Source: Closterium sp. NIES-65 (lineage: Eukaryota; Streptophyta; Zygnematophyceae; Desmidiales; Closteriaceae). Taken from it: a stretch of DNA of 64,000 nucleotides. The notes under the pieces are model-generated. The model saw only the letters and a list, made by a program, of their open reading frames with translations. It was not told the origin of the DNA and did no database searches. Location of the stretch: contig CANXME010002133.1 in NCBI GenBank assembly GCA_948144175.1, positions 260,501-324,500 on the forward strand. The letters are read 5' to 3'. Both the position numbers and the translations under genes were made by a program. Shown here in pieces: positions 823 through 54,617 of this stretch. Position 1 is the first letter of the stretch. Each line of letters begins with the position of its first letter.

Positions 823-3800
823 ATGTCTGCCGGCGGCGGCGGCGGTGACGGCGGAGGAGTGGAGGTTCTTTCTAGTCCCCATTTCACCAATCACTTGCGC
901 CTTCCTCGCGTGCGCTGCCCGCGCGGAGGCCTCTCCCGCGGAACCGTCGGCAGCAGCCCGCGGATGGGGCGCAGTCGCTCCTCCCCACGCCTGGCCTCTC
1001 CGCGCACTCCGCGGCGCCGAACGGGGCGCCTCTCCGCGGGCGCTGCGATGGCGTTTTTCAATACGTGTCGCTCCCCCACTAGCCCGACTTTTGCGACGTT
1101 CTTTCAGCTACAGCAGCAACTACAGCAGGAGATACAGCAGGAGTTTCAGCAGCAGCAGCAGCAACAACAACATCCTCAGCAGAGCGCGCCGCGACAAGCT
1201 ATCTGGCGGCCCCTGTCTCCACCCATCGTTGATAAATCGCTAGCGCCCAGCGGCAGTTGCGGCGGCGGCGGCGGCAGCGGCGGGGGAAGCAGTGGCGCTT
1301 CGATAAGCGGCGTGGAGGCGGAGTATAGCGCGATGGTGAATGAGGAGCTGCTGCTGTTCTTCTACCGAATGGACTTAATCGCGCGGCTGGAGGTAGGGCG
1401 CTGACTTAAACACGTGGCTGGAGGTAGGGCGCCGTGTCGGGGCAGGTATGGCGCAGGTTGGGCGCAGGTATGGCTGGGCGCGGGTTGGGCGCAGGTAGGG
1501 CGCAGGTGGGGCGCAGGTAGGGCGCATGTAGGGCGCAGATAGGGCGCTGGTGACGCGCAGGTAGGGATCATCCGGCGAGGATCGGCCGGAATTCTGTTCC
1601 ATTTCCACCTCCCCCTCCTTCCCCAACCCACGTCAACCCCTCCCGCTTACCTTCCCCCTTCACCTTCCGCCAATACCGCCTTCCCCCCATTCCGCACAGA
1701 GAGCGTTGCAAGCGGACCAGTACGAAGCAGCGCAGGAGCTACGGGAGAAAACGGCGGAGATAGACAGAGATACATTTCCTCCCGTTCCCTCCCCTTCAAA
1801 CCTCCCTGCCCCCATCCTCCCTTTTCCCCTCCGCGTTCCCCCAACCCCCCCATTTCCCGCAGAGAGCGCTGCAAACGGACCAGTACGAAGCAGCACAAGA
1901 GCTACGAGAGAAAATCGCGGAGATCGACAGAGAGACGGCGCGGCAACGAGACGCCAAGGCCGCCGTTTCCTTCCCCTCCGCTGTACCTTCCCCCACCCCC
2001 TTCGCCAACCACTCCGCCCCCCCGACCGCCCCCCCGACCGCCCCCCCGACCGCCGCCCTTTCCGCCGCCCCTTCCACTGCCCTTTCCACTGCCCCTTCCG
2101 CCGTGGGAAGCACCAGCAGCAGCCACAGCAGCGGCGTCGGCAGCGGCAGCGGCAGCGGCGACGGCAGCAGCAGTTTCAGCTGCATGCCACCATTGGTGGA
2201 GGATGGTCCTCTCTCCATGCGCACCCTAAAGTGCGTTGACTCTGTTGACTTGACTTTTTTATTCTGCTGACCTGGCTCGACTTGTCTGTGCTCGGGTTGG
2301 TTCTCATCAGCCTGACTGGTCCCAGAGTGCGTTGACTTGATTGACTGGATTGACTTGCGTTGACCTTCGTTGACCTCCCGTCTCCCCTCCCCCCGCCCAG
2401 CCTCCCTGACCTCATTCATTCACTGCCTCATTCGGCCTCCCCGTGTACCATGTCCCCCCGTCCTTCCCCCCCTCCCGCCTTCCCCCTTTTTTCATTCCGC
2501 CTGCCTGCTGCGCAGGGAGGAGCTTCAGCAGGTAGCATACGGGGGAAAAGCAGGGGGAGAGGAAGGGGAAGCGGGGGCGGTGAGGTGTCGCTGTCTCTTT
2601 CAGTTGGGGCAGCGCGTGCAGCACTGCAGACACGGTGAGAGGCAGGCAGCAGGAGGGGTAAGGGCTTGCAGACATGGTTGTGGGGAAGCGGGGGCGGTGA
2701 GGTGTCGCTTCCAGTTGGGGTAGCGCCTGCAGCACTGCAGACACGGTGAGAGAGGGCAGCAGTAGGATGGGAGTATAGAGGGCGGAAGAAAAGGGGAAGG
2801 AGTGTGGAAAAGGGGAAGGAGTGTGGAAAAGGGCCAGCGATTGGGTGGGCGTAGTGGGTGCGGGTCTCTTTCAGTTGGGGGAGCGCGTGCAGCACTGCAG
2901 ACACGGTGAGAGAGGACAGCAGCAGGCGGAAAAGGGGGAGTGGGAGGGAGGGAAGGGGTGTGCGGGAAAACAGGGGCCTTGAAAGTCGCTTTGATTTGGG
3001 GGAGCGCGTGCAGCACCGCAAACACGTTGAGAGGCAGGAGCAGCAGCAGGGGGAGTGGTGGGGGGGAGGAGGACAGGGAAAGCGGGAGGAAGGAGGTGAA
3101 GGGGCAAGGGATGGGTGGGTGTGGGGAAGAAGCAGGGGCGGTGAGGTGCCGCTTTCAGTTGGGACACGTGAGAGTGAGCAGGAAGGCGTGTGGGTGGGGA
3201 GGGGTTGGGGGGGATAGTGAGCTCTTTGTGAAATGGTGCCTCAAAACGCACTTTCAGTTGGGGCAGCGCGTACAGCGTAGCACACGGTGAGATAGAGCAG
3301 GAGAAGGGGAGGGGGTGGGGGGAGTGTGGGGAATGGGAGAGATGGGGGGGGGTGTGGGTGGGGGGAAAGGAAAAGTGGGGAAAGATATAAGTCGAGCAGG
3401 ACAGTAAGGGTCCTGTTACCATTTTGTTGCAGTTCCCCTCCCCCAACCACCCCCCCCCACCTTTTTTTTTTTTTTTTTTTTTTTTTTTGTCAACAACGAC
3501 CTGTTTCCTTTCATATTCTCTCCCTGATGCCATTGTCTAGCCTAGCCCCCTCTTTCTTGCTTCCCCTCCCCCTGTGCTCCCTCCCCTCTGCCAGCTTATA
3601 CAGCTGTGGTGGTGGGTGTGGATTCCTCGTGCTGGTAGTGGCTTTTGAAATCCCTATGGCCTGTTCCCTTTCACCCCCACTTACAGTTGTCCAACCCACT
3701 TTTCTCCCCCCTCCCCATCCCCCTTTCCCATTCCGCCGCCCCCTCCCCCCTCCCAGCCTATACTGCCGTGGTGGTGGGCGTGGATCCCGTGTGTTGCGAG

Positions 3801-5041
3801 TCAGCAGAGTGGATGGCGGCTGCTGACGTGGCAGGCCTTCCCAGAGGACCCTGTCAGCCGTTTTACCAGGTATGCACGCTTGGTGGGTCAAATATCTTCA
3901 ATCTGTTCGGTAATCAGATCGAATGTTTCCAATCAAATTGACCTTCCTGTCAGATTTGAGTCTCCATGGTCACCATTTGTTTTTAGTGTAAGACTTGGTT
4001 TTTCCAGCTACTTCATTGGACATGTGTACCAAATGATTTAAACATGTGTCAGGTGTGGAATTGAATCACCCTAAACTCTGGCCTCCTACCGTTTCTAATG
4101 CACTAAGCAAGTTAACACGATATTATCATGCCTTAGTGCTGCCTTTTAATTCATGAACACCTCACTGGGCGGTCATGATAAATGTAGTTATGGCACCATG
4201 TAATATAAACATTTTCCACCGTGGCCAACGCATTGCAGTCTCTCATCGTCGTAACTTTCTTCGCCCATCCCGTACCACTGCACTGCACCAAGCAGGTTCT
4301 CTTGGACTCTGCTGATGGAGGAAGCTTCCCAGTAGCTTACGGTGAGTGATACCAATATGGGTTGCCATACGCACAGCTGAAAGCAGCATCGCTGAGGTTG
4401 GCGTTAGGTTTTCTCCTTTAGTTTCTTCGAGCGCATGTATCCGTTTCCCCCTTCGTCTCTTCCCCCTCTCTCGCTCCCCCTCTCCAGCTCTTTCTTCTGT
4501 TTCTTTCTTGCTTCTTTATTTCGTTCAATTTTCGATCTTTCTTTCCTTGCAGTGGCCGAGGATCTACTAACCCTTCCCAGCGAGCCGACAACAGTACGTA
4601 TCCTCGGTGCTTGCACCAAAAATACTTCAAGTTGAGAGGTCTCCAGATCTCAGACTCTTGCAAATGTACTGGATCCTGTCTTTACTTTTCTTCACATGCC
4701 CCATCCCCCATTCCTAGGTCTAGCTCCAATCCATTTGCCCATCATTTCTCCTTACGCATATCTCTCCATTGGTTTATCTCCACTCTTATGTTTTTCCTCC
4801 CCATCCTCCTCCCGTCCCACAGACGAGATTCTCCCATCCATACCTCTACCTTCTTTTCCACGGCACGGACTCGCAAGGCAACTTCCTTCCGTGCCACCAG
4901 CTTCGGCAAAAGTACGGGGCGAGGTCTGGAAACTGGCTAGGGGAGAGTTTTCCTGAGCAGGCGCTCAATGGTGGTGCCTCTTTGGGGATGCCATTTATGG
5001 AGGGTGATTTACCCGAATGTGACGAGGAGGATGGGGGCTGA
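823..5041 (+). CDS. CLPF: ClpF-like chloroplast Clp-protease adaptor (UVR + YccV-like domains), spliced
   Basis: Proposed exons: 823-1392, 1863-2230, 2516-2531, 2604-2634, 3757-3869, 4296-4341, 4553-4593, 4823-5041. They total 1404 nt, exactly 468 codons (467 aa plus TGA), and every junction is GT-AG in phase. Residues 1 to about 100 are Ser/Arg-rich and fit a plastid transit peptide. A poly-Gln tract follows, then a UVR motif around residues 178-213 (RALQTDQYEAAQELREKI), a Pro/Ser-rich linker, and a YccV/HspQ-like hemimethylated-DNA-binding-type domain from about 319 to 430 (GQRVQH, VVVGVDPVCCES, QPFYQVLLD, YVAEDLL, HPYLYLLFHG). UVR plus YccV is the architecture of Arabidopsis ClpF, which is known to work with ClpS1 in delivering substrates to the stromal Clp protease. 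The start at 823 has a GCCATG context; an in-frame GTG lies upstream. Exon 4 has a second phase-compatible copy at 2875. The 16-nt exon 3 is the least certain. Function is by homology. Confidence 0.82.
1393..1570 (+). repeat. GTAGGGCGCA-type minisatellite in ClpF intron 1
   Basis: Directly after the exon 1 donor (GAG/GTAGGG) the intron repeats an approximately 10-11 bp unit, GGTAGGGCGCA with variants such as GGTATGGCGCA and GGTTGGGCGCA. The sequence CTGGAGGTAGGGCGC of the true junction recurs at about 1417-1431, so the array seems to have grown from the exon-intron boundary itself. Confidence 0.75.
1700..1770 (+). repeat. Upstream duplicate of the UVR exon start (ClpF exon 2)
   Basis: These 71 nt repeat the start of the functional exon at 1863 with few changes, again after a CAG acceptor. 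They encode RALQADQYEAAQELREKT, then run into T/C-rich sequence without a clear donor. This is a tandem copy of an intron-end plus exon-start segment left on the intron side. Confidence 0.75.
2604..3293 (+). repeat. Six tandem copies of ClpF exon 4 (first segment of the YccV-like domain)
   Basis: Copies of the 31-nt exon (TTGGGGCAGCGCGTGCAG...) start at 2604, 2715, 2875, about 2996, 3159 and 3258. Copies at 2604 and 2875 keep acceptor, frame and GTGAGA donor. The 2715 copy has a TAG. The 2996 copy has lost the acceptor AG and the donor GT. The 3159 copy has an internal deletion. The 3258 copy is 29 nt, so out of phase. Because 31 nt is not a multiple of three, only one copy can be included without a frameshift. 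Confidence 0.8.
3595..3626 (+). repeat. Partial upstream copy of ClpF exon 5
   Basis: A CAG acceptor followed by a close copy of the first 32 nt of the exon at 3757 (CTTATACAGCTGTGGTGG). It lacks the rest of the exon. It is another acceptor-side duplicate lying upstream of its functional exon. Confidence 0.7.
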
Positions 5042-10499: not shown

Positions 10500-11375
10500 T
10501 GATGTGTTTATGGTATGTTCAGTCTGAATATTTTGAGGTCTCTAGAGAGGGAATCAGTTTGCACATCTACCGCACTAGAGTGGGTTGGCTCTCTTTGAGA
10601 AATGGTGGGATATACACCATGGCTTCGCATCACCCGTAGTTGCACTAGTACACGAACTTCTGTAGATATGTGAATCAAACCGATCAGACCACGGTGTTTT
10701 CCCACGTCAACAGCGCCCAGGATCACGGAGCAGCTTCGATAGCGATTGGTTCTGAGCTCCTCCAACGGCTCCAGCGGACCATTTTAGGCCGAAAAGCAGA
10801 GGACAAATTTCGTGGACAGGTTTTGGAGCATCAATCGTCCTTTCGATGGTTTATGTACGGGGTTCGAGTCGGTTCTGCGGGTCTTAGAATATCTTAACGT
10901 GGGTACAGTATGGCTCTTGATTTGGCCGACAACCAGTTATCAAGGCTCCTGTGATACCTCCTATGCAAGCATAGAAGGGAGAAAAGAATTGAGGAAGCAA
11001 GCAGTCTAGAAGGTCAATATGAGTCTTGGAAAATTAGCCGATACAGTACTTTGTTTCCTCCACCATAAGTGACACTTGGGTTAGCCACCTCAAGCGGCGA
11101 ACCAGCAGAATGAGGTAGATGCGACGTGTGCTATTTGGTTGTTGAGGGCTGCAAGCAGCGGCAGCTTGTGCCGATCGTCGAGAACCATGAGCCGTTGATC
11201 CGAGGATCCGTTGACCAAGAAGGGTATCTGATTACCATGAGCCTGTGAAGAACAAATCGTTCTGATAACCATGTCTGGATTTCGAGGTCCGCAGTTGCCG
11301 CAACAGCGCCTTAAATGAATGACGTATGACCATCTGTAGCGCCTTTTCCGCGTTGCCATCTGCTCGTCTGGAGAC
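10500..11375. other. Intergenic region between F-box/WD40 and ABC transporter genes
   Basis: No recognisable gene or repeat. It should contain the 3' UTR of the F-box/WD40 gene and the promoter and leader of the ABC transporter. Short open frames on both strands have no family signature. Confidence 0.5.
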
Positions 11376-14300
11376 ATGGCTGGGTTTAGCAATTTCTTGA
11401 ATCAATCTGGACCGTTCGATGGGTCAGGATCACAATCTTCGCGATGCTGTTTCTTCACCGAGGAGTCGCAGACCATCGGCACCGACGATCAGCCGTTATC
11501 AATCAACGTCTGCGATCGCACGTCGTCCGCACAAGTTGATCTCCGTTTCTTGCGACGCTTGCTGGCCCTTCTGCGGCTCGCTGGTGTGAAATACGCCGTT
11601 ATCCTGTTACTCCTCGCGCTCGCGAACATTCCCATTGTCGCGAAAATGGGAACCGTTACAGGAACGTTCTATTTCGCACTCGTTAATGCCAACCCCGATG
11701 CTTTCCTCAAGACCCTCGGGAATTCCGCGATTTGGCTGACCCTGGCCGCTGTTTCCACGGCGCTCACCGATTGGTCCTCGCAGTTCCTTTGCCTGAAATG
11801 GCGGAAGACGCTGACGTCCGCGTGCCACGTGGCGTACAGGCGAAGCAGCTGGCTGTACTTCGCATCTTTCGAGAAATGCGGCACCTCTGCTGTTCATAAT
11901 GCCGATACACAAGCAAAAGCCCTTTCTGTACCCGTTATAGACAACCCCGATCAACGGATCACGGAGGACATTCACCGATTCGCGGAGCAGGTCTCGCTGC
12001 TTCTAAGTAGAACAGTAACGGCGCCGCTTACCGTGTTGTACTACAGCTGCTGGGTCGTGTCTCTAATCGGTCCCACGGGCCTCCTAATCATTCTCCTATT
12101 CTTCACAATCGGAGCGGTCATAACGCGCCGCGTCATGTCTCCAGTCGCGGCGCTAGTAGCCGAGCAGGAAAGGCGGGAAGCGGAGTTCCGTATGGCGCAT
12201 GTCAGAGTAAAGGAGCGATCCGAGGACATCCTTTTCTCGCGCGGGGAGGACGCCGAGGCGCGCCAGCTCAGCACTGAGCTGGCAGCCGTCCTAGCCAATC
12301 AGGAGACGCTGGTCTGGCGGTACTTAAAGCTCGGAATAACCACTAAGGTGTTCGATTATGCTGGCGTGGCTGTTAATTATCTAGCCCTCGCTGCACCTGT
12401 GTTCGGAATAGTAGGAGCAGGTATGGCCGGAGGAGGGGGAGATAGTAAGGATAAGGGGGCTGTTGCGCAGTGGATCAGTAACGCTTCGTTTGCGATCTTG
12501 CAGCTGATATTCGGAGGATCTCAGATCATTGATGCTGCTAAGATTATATCGGATTCTGCTGGGTACACTGCGAGGGTTGGTGAGCTGTTTGAGTCGCTGC
12601 AGTTGTTGCCTTCCGATCCGTTACAGTCACATTCAGTAGTGGCACGTGGAATGGATGGGCCGTTTCCACCCCCACCCCCACCAGCACCCGCACCAGCAAC
12701 AGCGGCAGCAGCAGCATCACCACCACCAGCGGCACTAGCATCACAGCCACTGTCGAAAAGAAGAGGTTTATGGGAGAGATTAACTGGGCAAAAGAGTGCT
12801 GGTTACACAAGGAAATGTGGTAACGCCGACGTGAGTGAAGTAACCGGGCTGCTGGATGTCAGAGTGGAAAGGGGGGACAGAGGAGGCAGCAGCAGCTCTG
12901 ATGTGAACAGGTTTTATAGGCAAGCGGGGGGTGTTGTGCAAGCGATGCAGGCTGGTGGGAAGATGGCTGGGTACGGCACATGGGAAGGGGAGAGTGGAGG
13001 AGCAGCGGGTGTAAGCACGTGGAGAGGGGCTGGCGAATCGGTGCGTGAGGGCCGTTGTGAGGACACGCGGATCACACCGTGTGGTGGCGAATTTGTGGAG
13101 CCAAGGGACTTTATGCTGCAGGAGCCGACTTGGCTGATGGTGCCGAGACCAGGAAGCAACGGCACGAGAGCTGACGAGGAAGCAGCCGGCGAAGCTGACA
13201 GGATCCTGCAGTACTCCATTCACTCTGTCCCGCCCGATCTACGCTCCCTTGTAGCCCAGGTGCCTCTCCAGTCGACTCAGACGTCACATCCTATCAGGGA
13301 AGCCGCAGTGGGACAGCAGCTGCATGCCTCCCCTTGTATGCACCCGATCCTGCAGTACTCCATTCACTCTGTCCCGCCCGAGCTACGCTCCCTGGTAGGG
13401 ACCCTGCTGCCACAATCCGGAGACGGATGGGGGAAGACGGAGAAGAGGTGGGCAGCTGCACGTGTGGGCGAGGCATGGAGCATGAGTGTGGAGGATGTGA
13501 TAGTAGAGGATGTGGGGATGGAAGGAGCGGAAATTGAGAAGGTGAGGATGGAAGATGTGAGAACGGAGGAGGTGAGAGTAGAGTATGGGGGGTTGGAAGG
13601 TGTGAAGAGGGGGGAGGTGAGAGTAGAGGATGTGAAGATAGTGGTGACATTTCAGTGCAGCGATGTGCCACTCTGGCCTATCCACAACAATTCATCCTCC
13701 TCTGCTGCTGGTGCTTCTGCTGCTGCGGCTGCTGCTGTATCAGAAGTTGCAAATGCAGATGGCGCCTCAGCACATGCAGGCATGAGTCCAGCAGACTCCG
13801 CCACAGCAACGCAGGCAGACGTCAGCAGGGCAATGAACCGGCTGCTCTTCAACTTCCGCCTCTTCCAGCAGCAGCTCTGTGAGCACATCTGGGCGGCCGG
13901 TCACTGGGCTGACGCTGTTGACCCCCTCACTGGCTACCTCATGCACTCTGCTTCTGGCAGCAGTGGCAGCAGCGCTGGTCGTAGTGCCGGTGGTGGTGGC
14001 AGCAGTGGTAGTGCCGAATTTGGTGCTGCTGGCAGCAGTGGTGGCGCTGAGTTTGTCAGTACTGGTATCGGTGCTGGCTGCACGTGGCCGTTCCCCTCCC
14101 CCATCAAGTACAACGAGGTGGACGTTGCCCAGATCCTCCTCGATTATCCTGTTGCTCCCACTGCCACGGCCAGTGAAGCAGCAGCAGCTTCAATGGGCTC
14201 CACAGTGCCTCCTAATGCTGCGGCGGCAGCAGCAGCAGCAGCAGGAGCAGCAGAACCAGCAACACCAGCAGTACCAGGACCACCACCAATGCCGTCATGC

Positions 14301-15482
14301 CCCCTAGTTCTCCACCCTTCATTTGGCACGCACACCTACCCAGCCTCCCTCCTCACCACCGCCCCTCTCCCTCTCCTGCAATCTGCCATCCGCCACGTGG
14401 CAGGCTCTGGTTGGCGCCTGCCAGGCTGGCAGGAGGAGGAAGGGGTCGTGGTGGTGGGACAGGGGACGGGGGATGGGAAGATGGGAGGTGTGACAGCAGC
14501 GGGGAAGGGAGCGGAGGGAGGGTGTGAGGAAGCATTGGTGGCACCTGAACCTGAACGTCTGCCTGCTTTTAAGCCTGAACGTGGACCTGAACTTGAGGTG
14601 CACCCACCATGTCACACCTGTTCCCCCTCCTCCTTCCCTCCTGCACTCTCCCTCTCCCGTCTCACTCTCACTCTCCCCCAAACAAACCACCTCATTGTCG
14701 CGAACCTCTCTCTCCATCTGCCACGTGGCAAGGCCCTACTGGTCACCGGTCCCAGCGGGTGTGGCAAAACCAGCCTCCTGCGCACCATCGCTGGACTCTG
14801 GCCAACCAGCAGCCGCCACGTCAGCAGCAGCAGCCGTAGCAGCGTAATTTCATCTGCTGCAGCCCTCCTTCCCCCCGTGACGTTATACCCCCCTGCTGCT
14901 TCCCCCAATGTCATGTTCCTTCCCCAGAAGCCCCTTCTTGCTCCCTCCCCCTGCCTTGCTGCTCAAGTCATGTACCCTATGGAACTTGGGGGTATTCCCG
15001 AGGGTGTGTGTAGAGGCAGGAGGAGGGATGGCGGCGTAAGGACAAGGATAGAGGCTGCTCTTGCTGTGGTGGGCTTGACGCACCTGTTACCATGTCTGGA
15101 GACCATCTGTCCAGATGGACTGGTGAAATCTGAGGATCGTTTTGGCAATGAGAGGCACTGTCAGCAGCAAGGCTGTCCCAACATCAGGCCGTCTCCAGAA
15201 CGGTCGGGGAAGGCGAAAAGTTGGATCGCGGGACTTTCTCCCGGGGAGCAGCAGCGGCTTCAGTTTGCAAGAGTGGTGTTTCATCGCCCGAGGTTGGTTT
15301 TCCTGGATGAGGCTACGAGTGCTGTGGATGGCGAGATGGAGGCGCGTATGTATGCCTGGCTTGCTATTGCGGGGGTTGCTATTGTTAGTGTTAGCCATAG
15401 AAGAGAATCTCTGCGGAGGTGGCACCATGCTGAGCTTGTGCTAGAGGGGGATGGAACAGGAAGGTGGAGAATAGTGCAATAA
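11376..15482 (+). CDS. Subfamily-D half ABC transporter (SbmA/YddA/ABCD-like), intronless
   Basis: A single 1368-aa frame from an ATG in GACATGG context. The N-terminal membrane domain covers about residues 50-380, with hydrophobic segments, the family motif NPDQRI near residue 190 and an EAA-like stretch near 266-290 (EFRMAHVRVKERSEDI). A very long, poorly conserved Ala/Gly/Ser-rich linker (about 420-1080) separates it from a C-terminal ATPase domain: Walker A GPSGCGKTS near 1125, Q-loop MFLPQKP near 1185, signature LSPGEQQRL near 1287, Walker B LVFLDEA near 1306, and H-loop SVSHR near 1338. One membrane plus one ATPase domain indicates a half transporter that dimerises. ABCD proteins act in peroxisomes, and a plant group close to bacterial SbmA/YddA is assigned to plastids; the sequence does not settle which applies. 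The linker makes it about twice the usual length. An unspliced intron inside the linker is unlikely because the frame stays open. Confidence 0.85.
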   Translation: MAGFSNFLNQSGPFDGSGSQSSRCCFFTEESQTIGTDDQPLSINVCDRTSSAQVDLRFLRRLLALLRLAGVKYAVILLLLALANIPIVAKMGTVTGTFYFALVNANPDAFLKTLGNSAIWLTLAAVSTALTDWSSQFLCLKWRKTLTSACHVAYRRSSWLYFASFEKCGTSAVHNADTQAKALSVPVIDNPDQRITEDIHRFAEQVSLLLSRTVTAPLTVLYYSCWVVSLIGPTGLLIILLFFTIGAVITRRVMSPVAALVAEQERREAEFRMAHVRVKERSEDILFSRGEDAEARQLSTELAAVLANQETLVWRYLKLGITTKVFDYAGVAVNYLALAAPVFGIVGAGMAGGGGDSKDKGAVAQWISNASFAILQLIFGGSQIIDAAKIISDSAGYTARVGELFESLQLLPSDPLQSHSVVARGMDGPFPPPPPPAPAPATAAAAASPPPAALASQPLSKRRGLWERLTGQKSAGYTRKCGNADVSEVTGLLDVRVERGDRGGSSSSDVNRFYRQAGGVVQAMQAGGKMAGYGTWEGESGGAAGVSTWRGAGESVREGRCEDTRITPCGGEFVEPRDFMLQEPTWLMVPRPGSNGTRADEEAAGEADRILQYSIHSVPPDLRSLVAQVPLQSTQTSHPIREAAVGQQLHASPCMHPILQYSIHSVPPELRSLVGTLLPQSGDGWGKTEKRWAAARVGEAWSMSVEDVIVEDVGMEGAEIEKVRMEDVRTEEVRVEYGGLEGVKRGEVRVEDVKIVVTFQCSDVPLWPIHNNSSSSAAGASAAAAAAVSEVANADGASAHAGMSPADSATATQADVSRAMNRLLFNFRLFQQQLCEHIWAAGHWADAVDPLTGYLMHSASGSSGSSAGRSAGGGGSSGSAEFGAAGSSGGAEFVSTGIGAGCTWPFPSPIKYNEVDVAQILLDYPVAPTATASEAAAASMGSTVPPNAAAAAAAAAGAAEPATPAVPGPPPMPSCPLVLHPSFGTHTYPASLLTTAPLPLLQSAIRHVAGSGWRLPGWQEEEGVVVVGQGTGDGKMGGVTAAGKGAEGGCEEALVAPEPERLPAFKPERGPELEVHPPCHTCSPSSFPPALSLSRLTLTLPQTNHLIVANLSLHLPRGKALLVTGPSGCGKTSLLRTIAGLWPTSSRHVSSSSRSSVISSAAALLPPVTLYPPAASPNVMFLPQKPLLAPSPCLAAQVMYPMELGGIPEGVCRGRRRDGGVRTRIEAALAVVGLTHLLPCLETICPDGLVKSEDRFGNERHCQQQGCPNIRPSPERSGKAKSWIAGLSPGEQQRLQFARVVFHRPRLVFLDEATSAVDGEMEARMYAWLAIAGVAIVSVSHRRESLRRWHHAELVLEGDGTGRWRIVQ
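13200..13397 (+). repeat. In-frame internal duplication in the ABC transporter linker
   Basis: About 50 nt at 13200-13250 and 13347-13397 are nearly identical, both encoding ILQYSIHSVPP[DE]LRSLV. They are 147 nt apart (49 codons), so the frame is kept. This is a coding-sequence example of the segmental duplication seen in introns elsewhere in the window. Confidence 0.85.
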
Positions 15483-16311: not shown

Positions 16312-19300
16312 ATGGCGGCGGTTCGCTCGCTTATCTCCTCCCTCAGGCTCACTCCCGCTCCAGTTGTACCGCTCAAATCATCAGCCTCCTCCCTCGTCCG
16401 CGACGAGTCGAGTTTCTTCAACCTGAACTTGAATCTCTCCGCATCATGCGCTTCAGCTAAGGGCCCTCGACGAGTCGCACCTCCTTCTGCTGCAGCGACT
16501 CCCGTCACGGCTGCTGCCGCAGCACCCACAGCGGAGGACGCGCCGTCGGTCCCGGCGTCAGGAACGGAAGCGACGCCGCGGCGCCGCCTGAAGGTTGGGT
16601 ACCACGCGGCGCAGGGGCGGCGCGACGAGATGGAGGACCACGTGGTGGTGCTGGAAGACATAGGCGCTGGGTTCCTCTACGCCGGCGTGTTTGACGGCCA
16701 CGCAGGTACGTGTTTGACGGCCACCCGGTGCGCATTTGATGGTCACCCGGTGCGTGTTGACGGCCATCCAGGTATCTTCTGAGTCGACGAGATGGAGGAC
16801 CACGTGGTGGTTCTGGAAGACAATGGCGCTGGGTTCCTCTACGCCGGCGTATTTGACGGCCACGCAGGTGCGTATTTGACGGCCACGAGCCTGTTGGACG
16901 GATACTGAGCGTGCAGTTTCCAAACCTTTCATTTCTGCTTTTCTGGGAAGCTTCCGATACTTGAGATTTGAGCGTGTGAGTTGACTTCGGAGCGCGTGTT
17001 TGTCGCGCGTGCAGGCGCGTCTTCCGCGAAGTTTCTGAGCGACGAGCTGCACGACGACTGCATGGAGGCGCTGGAGGGCGGCGCGGTGTTGGAGGACGAG
17101 GACCTGACGGCCGCGGAAGACGCGCTCGAAGATGCTTTCCTTAAAGCCGACCAACGGCTGCTGCAGTGGTGAGTGGGTGTGCTTGGCGGGGGTTGACTGA
17201 GTGTATGGTGAGGTTATGGAGGCGTTGGAGGGACTTTTGAGTCAACTTCTGAGTCGACTCAAAAGTCAACTGGGTTTGCTTGGCGGGGGTTGACTGGGTG
17301 TATGGTGAGGTTATGGAGGCGTTGGAGGGCGGTGCGGTGTTGGAGGATGAGGATCTGACGGCCGCGGAAGACGCGCTCGAAGATGCGTTTCTCAAAGCTG
17401 ATCAACGGCTGCTGCAGCGGTAAGAGGGCTTGGTGGTGTGGGTGTGCTTGGTAGGTGTGTTTGGTTGGGTGAGTTTGTATGGTGTGCTTGTTGTGTGCTG
17501 GCGCTGGAGTGCGGCGCGGTGTTGGAGGACGAGAACCTGACGGCTGCGGAGGACGCGTTTCTCAAGGCCGACCAACGGCTGCTGCAGTGATGAGAGCGCG
17601 TAATGGGTTGGGTGTGATTTGTGGGTGCTCTTGGTTGGTGCGTTTGGTGGGTGTACTTTGGTGAGCTAGTGGAGTGTTGGCGGCGCGGTGTTGGAGGACG
17701 AGGATCTGACGGTGGCGGAGCTCGAAGATGCTTTTCTCAAGGCTGATCAACGGCTGCTGCAGTGGTGAGTATTACTCAGGCTCGAAGAGCACAGTGCTGA
17801 GCCGAGTCGGGGTCGGTCGACGGGTACAGTGCCATTCGTGCGCCAGTAGGCTCAGACGTCACCGCGCATGGCCCCCTTCCCCCGTCCCCCCTCGCGCGCA
17901 CAGGCTGGAAGAGCACAGTGCTGAGCCCGAGTCAGGGGTGACAGGTACAGTGGCGTTTGTGCGCCAGTAGGCTCAAATCTCACCGCGCATGTTCCCCCCT
18001 TCCCCCCCGCCCCTCCCCCCCCCCCGCACACAGGCTCGAAGAGCACAGTTCTGAGCCCGAGTCGGGGTCGACAGGTACAGTGGCGTTTGTGCGGCACGAC
18101 CGGCTGTTCGTGGCGCACATAGGCGACTCGCGCGCCGTGATGGCCGTTGGGGGGGGCGACGAGGGATACATCTCGGACGACCATAAGCCCAGCGGCGACT
18201 CGGGCAAGGCACAGGCGGAGATTAAGCGGATCAACAAGGCGGGCGGATGGGTGAGTAGTTTTTTGTGTGTGTGTGTGTGTGTGTGTGTGGAAAGTCACCA
18301 ACTCGGGGAAGGTGCGGGCAGGAGAGATGAAGAGGATCAACAGGGCAGGCGGATGGGTGATTGAGTCAATTAGTTGGAGATAAGTCTGATTAAGCAATTG
18401 GGAAAGGCGCAGGAGGAGATTAAGAAGAGAAGTTCAACAATGCGGGCGGATGGGTGAGTGGGTGTTGAGTCGGCTAAAAATACACCTACCAAGCAGCGAC
18501 TCGGGCAAGGCGCGAGATCAAGCTGCGGAGATCAAGCGGATCAACAAGGCAGGCGGATGGGTGAGTGGGTGCTGAGTCGACTTGTGCGTGAGTGTTGAGA
18601 CGTTATCCTATCTCTCCCCCAATCCACCCTATCTCTCCCCCAATCCACCCTATCTCTCCCCCAATCCACCCCATCTCTCCCCCAATCCACCCCATCTCTC
18701 CCCCAATCCACCCTATCTCTCCCCCAATCCACCCTATCTCTCCCCCAATCCACCCTATCTCTCCCCCAATCCACCCAATCTCTCCCCCAATCCACCCAAT
18801 CTTCCTCCCAATGACCCTGTCTCTCTCCCTATCCATCCTATCTCTCCCCCATTTCACCTTACCTTTCCCCCTATCCACATGCCCACCCTTTTCCTCACCC
18901 ATTCGCAGGTGAGCCAAGGGCGGGTGTGTGGCGTGATTGCCGTGTCCCGAGCGTTTGGCAACGTGGCTTTCAAGACGAGAAAAGAGGAGTGAGTCACTGA
19001 CTGAGTGAGTCACTGACTGAGTGAGTCACTGACTGAGTGAGTCACTGACTGAGTGAGTCACTGACTGAGTGAGTCACTGACTGAGTGAGTCACTGACTGA
19101 GTGAGTCACTGACTGAGTGAGTCACTGACTGAGTGAGTCACTGACTGAGTGAGTCACTGACTGAGTGAGTCACTGACTGAGTGAGTCACTGACTGAGTGA
19201 GTCACTGACAGAGTGAGTCACTGACTGAGTGAGTCACTGACTGAGTGAGTCACTGACTGAGTGAGTCACTGACTGAGTGAGTCACTGACTGAGTGAGTCA

Positions 19301-22300
19301 CTGACAGAGTGAGTCACTGACTGAGTGAGTCGTGCTTCTGAATGATTGAAGTAACCAGCTTTACCAATACACCTACCTAGATCAATCACTGCACACAAAA
19401 CAAACAAACGAACAAACAAATGAAACAAAACTAGGACAAATCGAAGGGTAACGACAAGTAAAGTACTTGTATGCACATTAATGCCCTACTCTTCCCACTG
19501 AACCACTCTTATACCATGCTGAACCGCACTGTACCGCACTGTGCTCCTCTGTGTGCAGAATGATGCAACAAGGAGTGAAGAAGGGGAGGTGGACCACCAG
19601 ATGGGTCTCCAAGTAGGCTCGCTCCTTGCTGTTTGCTCCTTGCTCCTTGCTCCTTGCTCCTTGCCTCTTGCTGCTTGCTGCTTGATGCTTGCTGATTGCG
19701 TTTGCTTGCTGCTCTGCTCTAAAGCCATTCTCGTTTCAGTGAATTAGGGGAGGTGGACCACCAGATGGGTCTCCAAGTATGCTCTCCGCCTGCTGCTCTC
19801 TGCTTGCTGCTCTCTGCTCGCTTCTTGCTGCTCGCTGCTTGCTGCTGTTTCTAGTAGTTGGTCAGGAGAACCGAGTTTGGTGGCTGCTGCTGTCCCTCCA
19901 TTAACCAGTGAAGAAGGTCAAGTTGATATCCAGATAGGTTTCTCGTTGCTGCAGGGTGTTTTTCAAGATAGGTTTGAGAATTCTTAAAAACACCCTGAAG
20001 AAGGTCAAGTTGATACCCAGATAGGTTTCTCGTACCGTGCTTCTCATCCCTGCTATCTTACCCCTGCTCACCCCTTCTCAGCCATGTTGGTGTTACTTCA
20101 ACAGTAACACATTTCTCAAAAGTAACATCAACATATCCAGATATGTTTCTCGTACCTTTCTTCTCATCCTTCCTATCTTCCTCCTCCCCACCCCTTCTCG
20201 GCCCTATCCGCATGCTTTCCCCATGCCTGCTTCTGCCATCCCTTCCTGGTTTTCAGGAGAAAGTACGATTCTGATTGGATCTCAGCGCTCCCTGACGTGT
20301 ACGGCACTGAGCTGACAGAAGATGCCGAATTCGTCATCATTGCATCTGATGGCCTATGGGATGCGTTTTCCAGGTAGAAAGCTCTCCCTCTCCTGCTAAT
20401 GCCTAGCCCGCTCTCCCCTCATATTGCTACACGTCCTTCCCCCCCACACCCATTTCCACCCTTCCCCCCCCCCACACACCCATTTCCACCCTTCCCACCC
20501 CCACACCCATTTCCACCCTTCCCCCCCCCCACACACCCATTTCCACCCTTCCCACCCCCACACCCATTTCCACCCTTCCCCCCCCCCACACACCCATTTC
20601 CACCCTTCCCACCCCCACACCCGCTTCCCCACCTCCCCCCTCCCCCTTCCCTCCCGCTCCCCCACCACACCCTGTTACAGCTCTTTGAGGCAGTGTCGTT
20701 TGTGCGGAGCGAGATGGAGAGGACTTTTGAGGCGCCTCAACAGTGTTGTTTGTGCGGAGCGAGATGGAGACGCACTCCTTCCCTCCCTCCCTTTCTCAGT
20801 CCCACCACAACCTGTTAATCTTACAGCTCTTGAGGCAGTGTCGTATGTGCGGAGCGAGATGGAGAGGCATGGAGACTTCTGGAATACGTGACAACTACAC
20901 ACACACCCCCTTCCTTCCCTCCCACTCCCCTCTCTCGCTCCTCCCGCCCTCCCTACCTGCCTTCCCCACACATCCTGTTGGCAGCTTTGAGGCAGTGTCG
21001 TTTGTGCGGAGCGAGATGGAGAAGCATGGGGACTTTTGGAACAAACATCCGTTTCCCACACACACTGCTTCCCTCCCTCCCTCCCTCCCTCCCACCACAC
21101 CCTGTTAATCTTGTAGTTCTGAGGCTGTGTCATTTGTGCGGAGCGAGATGGAGAAGCATGGGGACGTGCAGCAGGCATGCGAGGCGCTCGTGCACGCTGC
21201 GCTGCATGTGAGTGTATGAGATTGTGGTATAATATGCTCTTATAAGCACACTCATTTCCACCGTGCTGGACTCTACAACATGGGGACGTGCAGCAGGCAT
21301 GCGAGGCGCTCGTGCACGCTGCGCTGCATGTGAGTGTATGAGATTGTGGTATAATATGCTCTTATAAGCACACTGATTTCCACCGTGCTGGACTCTACAA
21401 CATGGGGACGTGCAGCAGGCTTGCAAGGCGCTCGTGCACGCTGCGCTGCATGTGAGTGTCATATGATACACTATAATACACTACACTAGAGACTATTGTG
21501 CTATGCTACACTGCCATACAATAGTATTGGCTTGGAGGCTTGGGGACGCGCAGCAGGCTTGCGAGGCGCTCGTACACGCTGCGCTACATGTGAGTGTATG
21601 AGATTGTGGTATAATATGCTCTTATAAGCACACTGATTTCCACCGTGCTGGACTCTACAACATGGGGACGTGCAGCAGGCTTGCGAGGCGCACGCGGCTC
21701 TGCATGTGAGTGCTGTATGATACACAACGGTACACTACACTACAGGCTGCTATGCTATGCTACGCTATACTTTCATACACTAGTACTGCCTTGCAGGCAT
21801 GGCAACGTGCAGCAGGCATGCGAGGCGCTCGTGCACACGGCTCTGCATGTGAGTGAACAAGGATACAGTATAGTACATCAAGATACACTATATGACACTT
21901 TAGTACACTACGCATTGCCGCTGGCTTGGAGACATGGGGACGTTAAAAGACCTGCAGGCACAGCAGCCAGCAGGCTTGCGAGGCTCTCGTGCACGCGGCT
22001 CTGCATGTGAGTGCATGAGGGCATGGTACAAGATGCTTTTGTAAGCTGGGAAGCACGCTACAAGACAGTATAATGCACTGTCGTTGTGATAAAGGTAGTG
22101 TTTTGAGACGTTTCGATTCGAAACACTAACTTTATCACCTGGGATAGGAAGCACACTAGTTTCAGTATAATGCACTGTCGTTGCAGCACGGGGACGTAAG
22201 CAGGAATGCAAGGCCATTGTGCACACTGCTCTGCTCTGCACGTAAGTGTCTAAAGACATTCCTAGAAATGAGTGTCTAAAGACATACAGTATACTACATG

Positions 22301-22939
22301 AAGATACACCAATAGATGCTAGCTTGGAGGCACGGGGACATAAGCAGGAATGTGAGGCCATTCTGCACACTGCTATGCACGCGAGAGTCTAAAGACATTC
22401 CTAGAAATGAGTGTCTTATGACATTCAGTATAATACATGCAGATACACCAATAGTTGAAGGTAAGGGCTGGCTTGGAGGCATGGGGATGTGCAGCAGGCA
22501 TGCGATGCGCTCGTGCATACAGCTCTGCATGTGAGTGTATTATAATACAGTACACTACACTGTAAAACAGCACACTACAGCGGAATTTACTGTAGTCCTT
22601 GCTGACTCGTTAGAGTAGCATGATCAGCAACCATCTACACAGAGTAGCATCATCATCATCATCTCCTTGCGACACTCCGTATATCTCTTTATAGGTTCTT
22701 CTGTGCTCCCTGCTCTCTGCTGCACCCTCTGTGCTTCTGCTCTGCCCCACAGGATCGCGAGACAGAGGACAGGACAACACCAGAATCATCGTCATCTCCT
22801 CGCCCCAATCATGCTTCTATCCGTGCCGTGTGTCCCTTCGTGTCCTCATCTGTGTGCGTCTCTCTGCTGCGCCCCTCCCTCTCAGGATCGTGGGACAGAG
22901 GACAACACCAGCGTCATCGTCATCTCGTTGCGAGGCTAG
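16312..22939 (+). CDS. TAP38: TAP38/PPH1-type chloroplast LHCII protein phosphatase (PP2C), eight exons
   Basis: Proposed exons: 16312-16705, 17015-17168, 18034-18250, 18909-18988, 19559-19612, 20257-20373, 21117-21207, 22886-22939. They total 1161 nt, exactly 387 codons (386 aa). All junctions are GT-AG and in phase. Residues 1 to about 90 are Ser/Ala/Arg-rich and fit a plastid transit peptide. All PP2C metal-site motifs are present: RRDEMED, VFDGHAG, HIGDSRAV, ASDGLWD, and the terminal EDN. The segments GVKKGRW, HGDVQQACEALV and DRGTEDNTSVIV follow the plant TAP38/PPH1 phosphatase in order and spacing, and the length is close to the Arabidopsis protein. TAP38 dephosphorylates LHCII and returns antenna to photosystem II after a state transition. 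The frame ends right after the catalytic domain, so the C-terminal membrane segment of the plant protein is missing. Introns are packed with copies of exon edges. An equally good last exon lies at 23033-23086. Confidence 0.87.
16706..16890 (+). repeat. Duplicated 3' end of TAP38 exon 1
   Basis: Downstream of the functional donor, short decayed copies of TTTGACGGCCACGCAGGT occur near 16714, 16735 and 16757. An 81-nt copy of the exon end then lies at 16787-16867 (DEMEDHVVVLEDNGAGFLYA, then the DGHA codons) with its own GTGCGT donor, and a further fragment near 16874. None has an acceptor in front. Confidence 0.75.
17200..17767 (+). repeat. Three to four duplicated 3' ends of TAP38 exon 2
   Basis: Copies of the end of exon 2 (GTGTTGGAGGACGAG ... 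CGGCTGCTGCAG) lie at about 17313-17421, 17504-17590 and 17668-17767, plus a short piece near 17211. The first and last keep GT donors; the middle one reads CAGTGATGAG. No copy has a plausible acceptor. All are downstream of the functional exon at 17015-17168. Confidence 0.8.
17233..17266. repeat. Foldback element, TTTTGAG/CTCAAAA type
   Basis: Perfect 11-bp arms ACTTTTGAGTC (17233-17243) and GACTCAAAAGT (17256-17266) with a 12-nt loop. It lies between a short and a long copy of the exon 2 end. Confidence 0.7.
17775..17971 (+). repeat. Two duplicated 5' ends of TAP38 exon 3
   Basis: Copies of CAGGCTCGAAGAGCACAG and about 60 following nt start near 17775 and 17902, upstream of the functional copy at 18034. 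Both end in GCGCCAGTAGG, where the functional exon continues into the HDRLFVAHIGD codons. The acceptor-like AG is kept but each copy would hit a stop. Confidence 0.8.
18290..18562 (+). repeat. Three duplicated 3' ends of TAP38 exon 3
   Basis: Decayed copies of the exon end (GGCAAGGCACAGGCGGAG ... GGCGGATGGGTGAGT) end near 18360, 18454 and 18567. The two later ones keep GGATGGGTGAGT, that is the last codons plus the consensus donor. All lie downstream of the functional exon end at 18250. Confidence 0.78.
18607..18795 (+). repeat. 21-bp pyrimidine-rich minisatellite in TAP38 intron 3
   Basis: About nine head-to-tail copies of a 21-bp unit made of TATCTCTCCCCC plus AATCCACCC, with few substitutions, followed by degenerate copies up to about 18880. 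It lies just upstream of the exon 4 acceptor at 18908 and resembles an amplified polypyrimidine tract. Confidence 0.9.
18989..19332 (+). repeat. 16-bp minisatellite made of splice-donor sequence (TAP38 intron 4)
   Basis: About 21 copies of GTGAGTCACTGACTGA, beginning exactly at the donor of exon 4 (GAGGA/GTGAGT). Nearly all copies are identical; two read GACAGA. Each unit carries a consensus 5' splice site. Confidence 0.95.
19745..20153 (+). repeat. Four decaying copies of TAP38 exon 5
   Basis: The exon end GGGGAGGTGGACCACCAGATGG... is repeated at about 19746-19776 and, increasingly diverged, at about 19909-19943, 19997-20033 and 20126-20153 (GAAGAAGGTCAAGTTGAT...). Only the first is close to the functional copy at 19559-19612; the others are recognisable by alignment. 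Confidence 0.7.
19952..19997. repeat. Foldback between exon 5 copies
   Basis: Perfect 12-bp arms CAGGGTGTTTTT (19952-19963) and AAAAACACCCTG (19986-19997) with a 22-nt loop, sitting exactly between two decayed copies of exon 5. Confidence 0.75.
20440..20630 (+). repeat. C-rich minisatellite in TAP38 intron 6
   Basis: Alternating units of CACCCATTTCCACCCTTCC with either a C-run or CACCCCCA spacer, repeated about six times in the intron after exon 6. It is strongly strand-biased (C/A/T on the plus strand). Confidence 0.88.
20686..21050 (+). repeat. Four duplicated 5' halves of TAP38 exon 7
   Basis: Copies encoding EAVSFVRSEME occur near 20688, 20736, 20833 and 20984, upstream of the functional exon at 21117. 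Some differ in length at the acceptor (CTCTTTGAG, CTCTTGAG, CTTTGAG), which changes phase. Only the 20984 copy would be in frame after exon 6, but it lacks the second half of the exon. Confidence 0.8.
20727..20740. repeat. Palindrome at an exon 7 copy junction
   Basis: Perfect palindrome TTGAGGCGCCTCAA exactly at the junction of two copies of the exon 7 start, preceded by ACTT, so it carries the TTTTGAG core. Confidence 0.65.
21278..22530 (+). repeat. About nine duplicated 3' halves of TAP38 exon 7
   Basis: Segments encoding VQQACEALVHAALH with a GTGAGT donor recur near 21283, 21402, 21547, 21667, 21805, 21960, 22190, 22335 and 22485, separated by about 110-230 bp. The first repeats share the same intron piece (TATAATATGCTCTTATAAGC), so the unit is exon end plus about 80 bp of intron. 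Copies decay with distance from the functional exon. None has an acceptor. Confidence 0.85.
22088..22137. repeat. Foldback in the exon 7 copy array
   Basis: Arms TGATAAAG/CTTTATCA and TAGTGTTT/AAACACTA, with one unpaired base between them, form a long hairpin. The left arm is followed by TTTTGAG-like sequence (GTTTTGAGACG). Confidence 0.7.
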
Positions 22940-23086
22940 CCACCCTGATCAAACCCCCCTGTGTATCCCCTTCATTCAACTGTTCATCTGTGTTCTCTCC
23001 TCCGTGCTCTCTGCTGCGCCCCTCCCTCTCAGGATCGTGGGACAGAGGACAACACCAGCGTCATCGTCATCTCGTTACGAGGCTAG
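22752..23086 (+). repeat. Three copies of the last TAP38 exon
   Basis: Copies at 22752, 22886-22939 and 23033-23086. The first has a 5-nt insertion that shifts the frame. The second and third differ at one silent position (TTGCGA/TTACGA) and both give DRGTEDNTSVIVISLRG and a TAG after a good acceptor. Either can serve as the terminal exon. Confidence 0.88.
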
Positions 23087-29984: not shown

Positions 29985-30600
29985 CCGCGACCCGCGACCC
30001 GCCCCTTAGCGACTCGCGCGCCGCCCCTTAAGGCCCCGTCGGCCCACGCGCTCGCCCCTTACGGCCCCGTGCTCGCCCCTTAGCGACCCTGTCGGCCCCG
30101 TCGGCCCCGCGCTCACCTCCCTAGAGGCCCCCGTCGGCCCCGCGCTCGCCCTTAGCGGCCCCTTACGGCCCCGCGCTCGCCCCTAGAGGCCCCGAACGGC
30201 CCCGCGCTCGCCCTTGGCGGCCCCTTACGGCCCCGCGCTCGCCCTTAGAGGCCCCGAATGGCCCCCCGCTCGCCCTTAGCGGCCCCTTACGGCCCCGCGC
30301 TCGCCCCTAGAGGCCCGGATCGGCCCCGCGGTCGCCCTTAGCGGCCCCTTACGGCCCCGCGCTCGCCCCTAGAGGCCCCGAACGGCCCCCCCAGAACGAG
30401 CCGCCCGACCCGAGCAGCCCGAACCGAGCCGCCCAGCCCGAACCGAGCCGCCCGAACCGAGCCGCCCGAACCGAGCAGCCCAGCCCAAACCGAGCCGCGC
30501 CGCCCGAACCTAGCCGCGCCGCCCTTCCCGAGCCGCGCCGCCATACCTGAACCAAGCCGCGCCGCCCGTACTGGACCGAGCCGCCCTACCTGAGTCGCAC
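29985..30600 (+). repeat. Two-part GC-rich repeat leader of Copia 1
   Basis: The first part (about 29985-30390) repeats units such as CGGCCCCTTACGGCCCCGCG with CTCGCCC and TAGAGGCCCCG. The second part (about 30390-30600) repeats GAGCCGCCCGAACC-type units. The same two-part arrangement is found in Copia 2. It lies in the untranslated leader before gag. Confidence 0.88.
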
Positions 30601-30649
30601 TGCCTACTGTTTTTGGGGTGCCCCTACTGCTATTACTCCTACTACTGCT

Positions 30650-31750
30650 ATGGCTAGCCCTCCTGTGCTGGCTTTCGATGCTGAGGGCCGCCCAGTGAAG
30701 TTCGAAACCTGGCTAGATGACCTACACCTCTTCCTACAGCTCACTGCCAAGGAGGACATCTCACTGTACGATCACGCCCTAGGCCATGCTCCTGCTCCTG
30801 CTGCTACTGCTGACAGCACTGCCCGCTCACAGTGGCAGACTCGTGACGCCCACGCTCGCTTCGCTATTCGCAACTCCCTGCCGATAGATGAGCGCGAGCA
30901 CTTGAGGCAGCACAAGACTGCACAGGCACTGTACACTGCTGTCGTTGCCCGCTACTCCTCACCAGCCTCTGCCGCACTAGGCCGTCTCTCTCTTCCCTAC
31001 CTGTTCCCCGACTTAGCCTCTTTCTACACAGTCGCTGACCTCATTACGCACCTACGCACTAGTGAGGCTCGCTTCTGCGCCGCCATGCCTGATGAGTTCC
31101 TTGCCAAGAACCCACCCCCACTCTGGCTCACTCTCTACCACCTAGTCACCCGCCTCCCTGACACTCTGCACTCAGTCAGGGACCACTTCCTAGCTCGCTG
31201 CCCCACTGAGCTCACCATTGCCGTCCTCGAGAAGGAACTCCTTCCAGCTGAGGCTAGCATAGTCGCTGTAGGTGCCTCTCGTGGCGACCCCCGTACCCCG
31301 TTCTTTGAGGGGTGTTCTCCTTCCCCCCTTCTTCCCTCTGTCGCCTCTGCTGCTGCTGTCGACCTCCTTGGTGCTGAGAAGGTCGGGACTGCGTCTGCTT
31401 CGAGCGGGCGCCGCAGCGGCAAGGGCAAAGGGGGCAAGGGCGGTGGCGGTGACAGCGGGGGAGGCGGTGGTGGGGGCGGTGGCGGCGGTGGGGGTGGTGG
31501 CGCGACTGGAGGGGCTAGTGGCAGCGGTGGGGGTGGTGGCGGCAGCGGCGGGGGAGGTGGCAGGGGCGGAGGCGGTGGTGGGGGTGGCGGTGGACGCGGC
31601 GGCGGCAGGGGTTGGGGTGGTCGAGGAGGTGGCGGCGGCGGTGGTGGTCGTGGAGGCGCTGGCCGTGGCCAGGGCCAGCAGCACACTTCGTCGCCCCAGG
31701 AGGTCCGTGAGTGGTACTCTCAGCACAGGGGGGGGGGGAGGTGGCTTTAG
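30650..31750 (+). CDS. Copia 1 gag
   Basis: 366 aa from an ATG (ACTGCTATGG). Residues 1-230 form a Copia-type capsid region (FETWLDDLHLFLQL, ALYTAVVARYSSP, VADLITHLRTSEARFCAAMP, FFEGCSPSPLLPSVASAAA). Residues about 250-345 are almost pure Gly with some Arg and Ser, an RGG-like tail in the usual nucleocapsid position. At a G-run near 31728-31738 the frame departs from that of Copia 2 and stops; a one-base shift there rejoins the knuckle segment downstream. The break may be a real indel, a sequencing artefact, or a frameshift site. Confidence 0.85.
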   Translation: MASPPVLAFDAEGRPVKFETWLDDLHLFLQLTAKEDISLYDHALGHAPAPAATADSTARSQWQTRDAHARFAIRNSLPIDEREHLRQHKTAQALYTAVVARYSSPASAALGRLSLPYLFPDLASFYTVADLITHLRTSEARFCAAMPDEFLAKNPPPLWLTLYHLVTRLPDTLHSVRDHFLARCPTELTIAVLEKELLPAEASIVAVGASRGDPRTPFFEGCSPSPLLPSVASAAAVDLLGAEKVGTASASSGRRSGKGKGGKGGGGDSGGGGGGGGGGGGGGGATGGASGSGGGGGGSGGGGGRGGGGGGGGGGRGGGRGWGGRGGGGGGGGRGGAGRGQGQQHTSSPQEVREWYSQHRGGGRWL

Positions 31751-32120
31751 CTGCACGTACGTCATTCGCACTGGTGACCGCACTGGTCAGCCGTGTGGGG
31801 GACCGCACGCCACACAGCGCTGCTTCGCTCGTCTCAACGACGCTTGGCGTGTTCAGTTCCCTCAGGCCACTGAGCTGCCCCGCTGGGTTGATCTCCTGAA
31901 GAAGGGGATTGATATCTATGCTCTAGACTTTGATGCTATTCTCACTGCTATGTATGTGATGTCTACTAGTGGAGAGGGTGCTGAGTACCTGTGTGTGCCG
32001 CCCGACCCGGGCATTAGGACTAGTGCGTCTGCCGCTCCAGGTACTCGCGTGTCTGCTACCCCTGGTGCTGGTGAGGCAGCTACTCTAGGTGCTTGTGCGT
32101 CCGCCCCCCCTTGGTACTGA
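31740..32120 (+). pseudogene. Copia 1 gag C-terminus with C-x13-C-x3-H-x4-C knuckle
   Basis: It lies in a frame shifted by one from gag. It reads CTYVIRTGDRTGQPCGGPH then ATQRCF: a zinc-knuckle-like array with 13 residues between the first two cysteines instead of two. RVQFPQATELPRWVDLLK and FDAILTAMYV follow. Copia 2 has the same spacing. The frame ends at a C8 run near 32105, after which the protease frame is again shifted. Confidence 0.75.
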
Positions 32121-33432: not shown

Positions 33433-33435
33433 GTC

Positions 33436-46575: not shown

Positions 46576-46637
46576 TCGATCCACCTACCTGGTAAGAGCA
46601 CAGTCTCTGCCACTGCACTACCCTGCCTACTGCTATT

Positions 46638-54484: not shown

Positions 54485-54617
54485 TGTCAGAATGTTATGT
54501 TTGTCTAGCCTGCAGTGGGGTACTCAATAGTGAGTACAGCCCAACTTAGGGTTTTCTATATGTACTCAACTACTTGCTAGTGAACCTCCTCTCTTCTTCA
54601 TTCTCGTTTTTATCACA
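54485..54617 (+). repeat. Right LTR of the old TRIM/LARD-like element
   Basis: 133 bp, preceded by a polypurine tract and abutting the truncated minus-strand Copia gag. Confidence 0.75.

Follow-up and report, generated by a model that had tools for sequence, protein, structure and literature searches.

Copies of exon edges with splice sites in the introns of a TAP38-like gene and of other genes in Closterium sp. NIES-65

How introns become longer is an open question, with transposons as the usual answer. Introner elements are copies of one element dispersed through the introns of many genes, intronic minisatellites or variable-number tandem repeats (VNTRs) form head-to-tail arrays with a variable number of units, and the mutually exclusive tandem exons of Dscam-like genes are whole exons with both splice sites that are used alternatively. 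Here we describe introns that contain copies of the edges of their own gene's exons, found in a 64,000-nt stretch of DNA (the window), which is part of contig C1835 of the 874-Mb genome of Closterium sp. NIES-65. The copies in the introns of a TAP38-like gene are real, and the pattern extends beyond this gene, in which it was first noted. The covered parts of the genome paper present the organism as a unicellular streptophyte alga whose vegetative cells are haploid, and they give the mean length and number of introns with no mention of exon copies (PMC10407611). No description of introns made of exon-edge copies was found in the open-licence literature, as judged from titles and the beginnings of abstracts.

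Like introner elements, the copies act as a source of intron sequence in many genes, but unlike them they match the gene's own exons, as seen for two genes of the window (the TAP38-like exons have 22 matches in their own introns and 0 in those of a YccV-like gene). They resemble Dscam-like exons in being tandem coding copies with splice sites inside one gene, but 25 of the 26 TAP38 copies are partial and exon 8 alone is copied whole. As in an intronic VNTR, the units of an array derived from the end of exon 7 lie head to tail and differ in number between the window and a second locus on contig C43; unlike VNTR units, those in Closterium contain a coding edge with a splice site, and their substitutions follow a coding pattern. 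In fresh arrays the unit repeats evenly over its whole length, and in 14 of 20 hand-picked older pairs the exon edge alone is alike. The nearest case is the potato RdRp gene, described in the covered part of its report as a single tandem duplication over an intron-exon boundary (PMC4974935). Both systems have tandem duplication across such a boundary and an outer copy that is partly intronic, but the potato case is one event that gave a new intron, whereas in Closterium the duplication is recurrent, affects existing junctions in several families, lengthens introns and yields units that apparently recombine. The duplicated units span junctions (a 122-bp unit across the exon-7 donor, and 124-bp units including the exon start in CCT5), and the copies sit within present introns.

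The TAP38-like gene (16312-22939, plus strand) has 8 exons with GT-AG splice sites and encodes a protein of 386 aa, of which residues 94-384 align with Arabidopsis PP2C 57 (4yzg, 310 bits), which we take to be TAP38/PPH1. The NIES-65 protein P0001, also 386 aa long, shows 99% identity to the product. The functional exons, all on the plus strand, are placed by the gene model, with protein alignment in addition for exon 1 and exon BLAST for exons 4 and 6:
16312..16705, +, exon 1, donor GTACGT
17015..17168, +, exon 2
18034..18250, +, exon 3
18909..18988, +, exon 4, no copies found
19559..19612, +, exon 5
20257..20373, +, exon 6, no copies found
21117..21207, +, exon 7
22886..22939, +, exon 8, holds the stop codon

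Each exon was compared with the region by BLAST (E<=0.01, both strands), with exons as the queries and never intron interiors. This gave 26 same-strand copies near exons 1, 2, 3, 5, 7 and 8, no minus-strand copies, and no copies of exons 4 and 6. Exon 1 has 1 copy downstream, exons 2 and 5 have 3 each downstream, exon 3 has 2 upstream and 3 downstream, exon 7 has 4 and 7, and exon 8 has 2 and 1; two extra exon-7-end units, at 22187 and 22331, are seen by alignment beyond the 26. The preliminary description had at least seven of the eight exons copied, which is too many, as only six have detectable copies and only the donor of exon 4 is repeated, inside a 16-bp satellite at 18987-19331. Intron 4 has no recognised copies. 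Of the 5467 nt of TAP38 intron DNA, 1272 (23%) can be recognised as derived from exons. The copies and related repeats, with the method in brackets where one applies, are:
16706..16771, +, short repeats, about 22 bp each, of the exon-1 end with its donor, reading in frame up to an outer donor at 16772
16785..16867, +, exon-1-end copy (95%) with GTGCGT donor (BLAST, alignment)
17313..17764, +, three exon-2-end copies, 17313-17417, 17500-17589 and 17679-17764 (BLAST, alignment)
17780..17966, +, two exon-3-start copies with CAG acceptors, 17780-17845 and 17904-17966 (BLAST, alignment)
18301..18560, +, three exon-3-end copies, 18301-18356, 18400-18453 and 18489-18560 (BLAST, alignment)
18987..19331, +, 16-bp satellite of 21.6 units, the unit containing the exon-4 donor GTGAGT
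19738..20029, +, three exon-5-end copies, 19738-19776, 19907-19942 and 19996-20029 (BLAST)
20686..21033, +, four exon-7-start copies, 20686-20720, 20743-20774, 20831-20876 and 20988-21033 (BLAST, alignment)
21279..21400, +, fresh 122-bp duplicate of exon-7 end, donor and intron start, with 1 difference, not in the second locus
21401..22530, +, eight older exon-7-end copies, six with GTGAGT donors (BLAST, alignment)
22648..22803, +, two partial exon-8 copies, 22648-22672 (weak) and 22753-22803 (BLAST)
23033..23086, +, intact whole second exon 8 (98%) (BLAST)

Exon starts are copied upstream of the working exon and exon ends downstream of it in 24 of the 26 TAP38 copies. This direction rule had been described as free of exceptions; it is broken twice, both times by exon 8, once by the intact whole copy at 23033-23086, which lies downstream, and once by a weak match at 22648, where 25 nt of the later part of the exon recur upstream. 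Two copies of exon 8 are usable. Nor is the rule a special sign, since any tandem duplication across a junction yields it. A preference for junctions requires no targeting if introns were once short: in a simulation, duplications across one junction make up 0.96, 0.94, 0.84, 0.62 and 0.42 of the tolerated ones when ancestral introns measure 80, 120, 160, 250 and 400 nt, and a special junction bias was set aside as not needed with short ancestral introns. The claim that only the innermost copy keeps the frame fails at exon 1, where the outer donor at 16772 is in frame and adds 22 codons with no stop; the protein model P0002 of Naga37s-1 (408 aa) holds the same 22-residue insertion. At five of the seven junctions a stop lies at most 9 nt past the inner donor. 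The donor GT is kept in 15 of 17 aligned donor copies (exons 1, 2, 3, 5 and 7, counted by hand), which by a rough estimate is not above expectation, and selection on copied donors was set aside. A small-sample codon test of the TAP38 copies gave P of 0.001-0.05 depending on the assumed mutation bias.

With the low-complexity filter on there are 23 copies for TAP38, 7 for the YccV-like gene and 0 inverted. Without this filter the TAP38 exons have, besides the 22 matches to their own introns, 0 each in YccV introns, window intergenic DNA and shuffled introns; the YccV exons have 8 matches in their own introns, 3 in TAP38 introns, 2 in intergenic DNA and 0 in shuffled introns. A chance origin of the copies was set aside on these controls.

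The YccV-like gene encodes 491 aa; Pfam PF08755 was matched on a first gene model, whose 72-nt intron was rejected because related proteins read through it. Copies were recognised near exons 2, 3 and 4, and none in introns 2, 4, 5 and 6, and by eye the exon-1 end with its donor is repeated in a 31-bp unit together with an 11-bp satellite. By gene prediction, the Naga37s-1 protein P0125 runs through three tandem YccV exon-2 starts where the window has two. The features are:
823..5041, +, YccV-like gene, exons 823-1392, 1863-2230, 2516-2634, 3757-3869, 4296-4341, 4553-4593 and 4823-5041
1700..1773, +, exon-2-start copy, upstream (88%)
2642..3285, +, five partial exon-3 copies, mostly of the exon end, downstream
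3597..3639, +, exon-4-start copy, upstream (79%)

Profile scans of the genome matched the same part of the PP2C profile repeatedly at C2039, C2226, C1851 and C106, and gave repeated TCP-1 matches at C43, C1626 and C1052. In a comparison of the DNA of fetched loci, 23 of 36 TCP-1 coding segments, in seven of eight genes, have copies; the sample was 8 of 11 profile-match groups, three of the 8 being already known to hold repeated matches. Start halves upstream (36) and end halves downstream (29) make up 65 of the 71 TCP-1 copies (Fisher p 2e-13, with copies of one exon not independent), and all 6 exceptions come from one segment. The matches of these segments are on the same strand in 79 cases and on the opposite strand in 2; with 2 of 81 opposite and the direction rule kept, dispersed insertion was set aside. 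For PP2C, 7 of 27 coding segments have copies (7 of 28 with segment C1103:450132, which has none), and 13 of 13 copies obey the rule; here 17 loci of about 28 profile-match groups were sampled, the near-identical duplicates C1475 and C1450 both being counted. Three segments that are themselves copies are omitted from the count in each family. At each of the two CCT5 loci one exon has eleven upstream start copies, which are 98-100% identical and follow each other with a period of 124 bp, and a PP2C exon at C2039 has twelve downstream copies of its end part. Among control segments of 200 nt from the window, local copies are present in 1 of 120 intergenic and 0 of 120 transposon coding segments. 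As a separate observation, a 112-bp tandem array occupies 4600-4992 at the TCP-1 gene on C1667 (L033), whose four coding segments lack local copies.

A second locus with TAP38 and YccV genes lies on contig C43. It is mostly 95-99% identical to the window, and the array unit numbers differ between the two. In the window the exon-7-end units can be written A-A'-B-C-D, where A and A' are identical at all but one of 122 bases, and in C43 A-B-C-B'-C'-D; C43 also carries an additional exon-2 unit of 154 bp and a donor unit of 23 bp. Fresh head-to-tail duplications include a 122-bp unit in the window, one of 260 bp at the C43 locus and, in CCT5, 11 copies of 124 bp, an array with an equal unit number in its two loci. 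Since arrays differ in unit number between closely similar loci and the 122-bp unit is fresh, the turnover is recent. TAP38 exons 2 and 7 look like copy-to-exon exchanges when window and C43 are compared. Exon 2 of the window resembles that of C43 joined to the end of the extra 154-bp unit, which suggests that a former exon-2 copy became the working edge in the window, and C43 exon 7 and its adjacent copy have a patch in common, including a Phe-to-Tyr change. In the PP2C family, C2226 is apparently without about 1.5 kb of units found in C2039: from the exon end onward it aligns with C2039 from the ninth copy onward (93%, 680 columns), and its exon end itself is 99% like the working exon of C2039. 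In two stretches compared between C1475 and C1450 (L019/L021), the exons differ at seven synonymous sites, and the DNA outside them by about three substitutions and a single indel patch, adjoining copies and introns being almost unchanged; the exon patches look as if converted. Intron 5 of the C43 TAP38 gene also holds an 833-bp stretch of CTTGCTCCTTGCTTCTTGCTG-type satellite that is absent from the window.

Aligned with the working exons, 116 copies have a proportion of synonymous differences (pS) of 0.262 and of non-synonymous differences (pN) of 0.058, a ratio of 0.22 (bootstrap 0.18-0.26), and copies compared with each other (163 pairs) have pS 0.202, pN 0.049 and a ratio of 0.24. From 90 non-coding differences the expected ratio is estimated as 0.74 under free decay, and as 0.37 or more when a working exon is compared with a copy that decays. 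The ratio is 0.18 in the 91 intact copies and 0.36 in the 25 with a frameshift or stop. Stops are few (6-7 counted), and indels number 33 per 867 substitutions in copies against 16 per 90 in non-coding DNA. The set excludes a TCP-1 segment with a stop, another one with a stop, most segments without copies, and L021, which duplicates L019. In the 14 of the 20 hand-picked unit pairs mentioned above no relationship is detectable outside the exon part (z<3), which itself is 87-99% identical. The divergence seems to have arisen mostly under coding constraint and in smaller part as decay.

The window and C43 loci look like haplotype mosaics. Positions 8615-12214 of the window differ from C43 (L006-L008) with a coding pS of 0.193, pN of 0.050 and ratio of 0.26, and by 23% in non-coding DNA, between flanks that are mostly less than 3% different; as this diverged tract lies inside similar flanks, diverged haplotypes were probably mixed in the NIES-65 lineage. 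The copies are somewhat more diverged than this tract, with a similar pN/pS (0.22 vs 0.26). The covered parts of the genome paper ascribe a hybrid origin with recombination to strain NIES-4550 and note that NIES-65 has many duplicated genes (PMC10407611).

The explanation that we tentatively prefer is junction-spanning duplication and unequal recombination in which exons may anchor exchange between diverged haplotypes and splicing would hide the extras. A unit would be born when a segment of roughly 100-300 bp across a junction is duplicated or is inserted as a copy through unequal recombination or repair. Haplotypes stay most alike in exons, and exons may therefore act as anchors for unequal recombination or repair that would leave an exon edge with foreign intron beside the working exon, the haplotype step being one that we infer. 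On this view many of the copies would come from the edge of a working exon in another haplotype, which would account for both the coding-like divergence and the unrelated intron flanks. Units would multiply by local tandem expansion; the innermost copy would keep the frame and the outer extras would be removed by splicing, so that selection would tolerate them. It is possible, though we consider it doubtful, that the introns form an archive of alternative coding-like exon edges that expands, contracts and returns to the working exon, with genome-wide growth by haplotype recombination.

Several observations weigh against the preferred explanation. The fresh cases are plain head-to-tail duplications for which a second haplotype is unnecessary, and the TAP38 copies share NIES-68 residues at only some variable sites. 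Six of the 20 unit pairs keep a related intron part, 24 of the 33 indels in copies shift the frame, so that part of the divergence is free decay, and the neutral yardstick for pN/pS consists of 90 substitutions only. The four coding segments of the TCP-1 gene on C1667 have no local copies, and 37 of 120 random segments of single-exon genes of the window have local repeats, provisionally attributed to low-complexity coding and in-frame repeats. In mating group II-B, to which NIES-65 belongs, 216 of 246 duplicated gene families have copies that group in a single clade; in the covered parts of the paper this is interpreted as recent within-group duplication, with gene conversion not excluded (PMC10407611).

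Plain tandem duplication in situ over junctions followed by neutral decay, the copies being snapshots of one evolving exon, is on balance unlikely, although fresh duplicates exist, direction and junction preference call for nothing special if introns were short, pN/pS reaches 0.36, near the neutral expectation, in the 25 broken copies, and some residues of other strains are found in outer copies. The ratios of the intact copies (0.18) and of copy against copy (0.24) both fall below the floor of 0.37, indels are scarce, the rest of the unit is without detectable relation in those 14 chosen pairs, and window intergenic DNA has local duplicates in only 1 of 120 segments. The preliminary description had proposed repeated duplication across junctions with the innermost junction left working. 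The fresh head-to-tail units and the recurrence in other gene families uphold that much of it, but with divergence mostly coding-like, flanks often unrelated and units and exons that seem to recombine, duplication and decay alone are insufficient. The low pN/pS of the intact copies could instead point to retention by selection, as alternative exon edges or as decoy sites that regulate splicing, and the donor GT kept in 15 of 17 cases, the in-frame outer exon-1 donor, the Naga37s-1 models that include copies and the two intact terminal exons would agree with this. We regard such use as improbable, since 25 of the 26 TAP38 copies are partial, five of seven junctions meet a stop at once past the inner donor, 25 of 116 copies have a frameshift or stop, unit number varies between closely similar loci and the annotated NIES-65 proteins are of ordinary length (386 and 536 aa).

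Templated insertion during end-joining repair of intron breaks, with nearby DNA copied at random, would fit discrete copies with unrelated spacers in the 14 chosen pairs; it is very improbable given that only 2 of 81 TCP-1 matches are on the opposite strand and window intergenic segments are almost without copies, and it leaves the low pN/pS without a reason. That the arrays are an artefact of assembly or collapsed haplotypes is scarcely credible: the assembly is a long-read one rich in repeats, but the arrays are present at two loci and implied by the protein models of another strain, and the copies have mostly diverged instead of being exact.

Closterium, a relative of land plants, appears to lengthen its introns by repeating exon edges with their splice sites, in several gene families and recently enough that similar loci differ. 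Such genes offer a natural test of how the spliceosome would settle on the innermost among many near-identical sites, and of whether mixed diverged haplotypes reshape gene structure. Gene models in such genomes may wrongly include copies, and, if the archive idea is true, introns would be a reservoir of protein-coding variation.

Among the other features of the window, an EIN3-like transcription factor gene at 59723-63500 has a 160-nt intron between two open reading frames (ORFs), in which inspection by eye only revealed no copies. An ABC-transporter ORF of 1380 aa at 11340-15479 has about 765 residues between its transmembrane and nucleotide-binding matches, with in-frame repeats of 66 bp at a 144-bp offset and of 75 bp x 1.9. 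The region 27000-58000 contains related repeat blocks at 30032-33775 and 46023-49868, which are 73% identical and apparently retrotransposons, and a copia-type gag match is located at 54616-55431.

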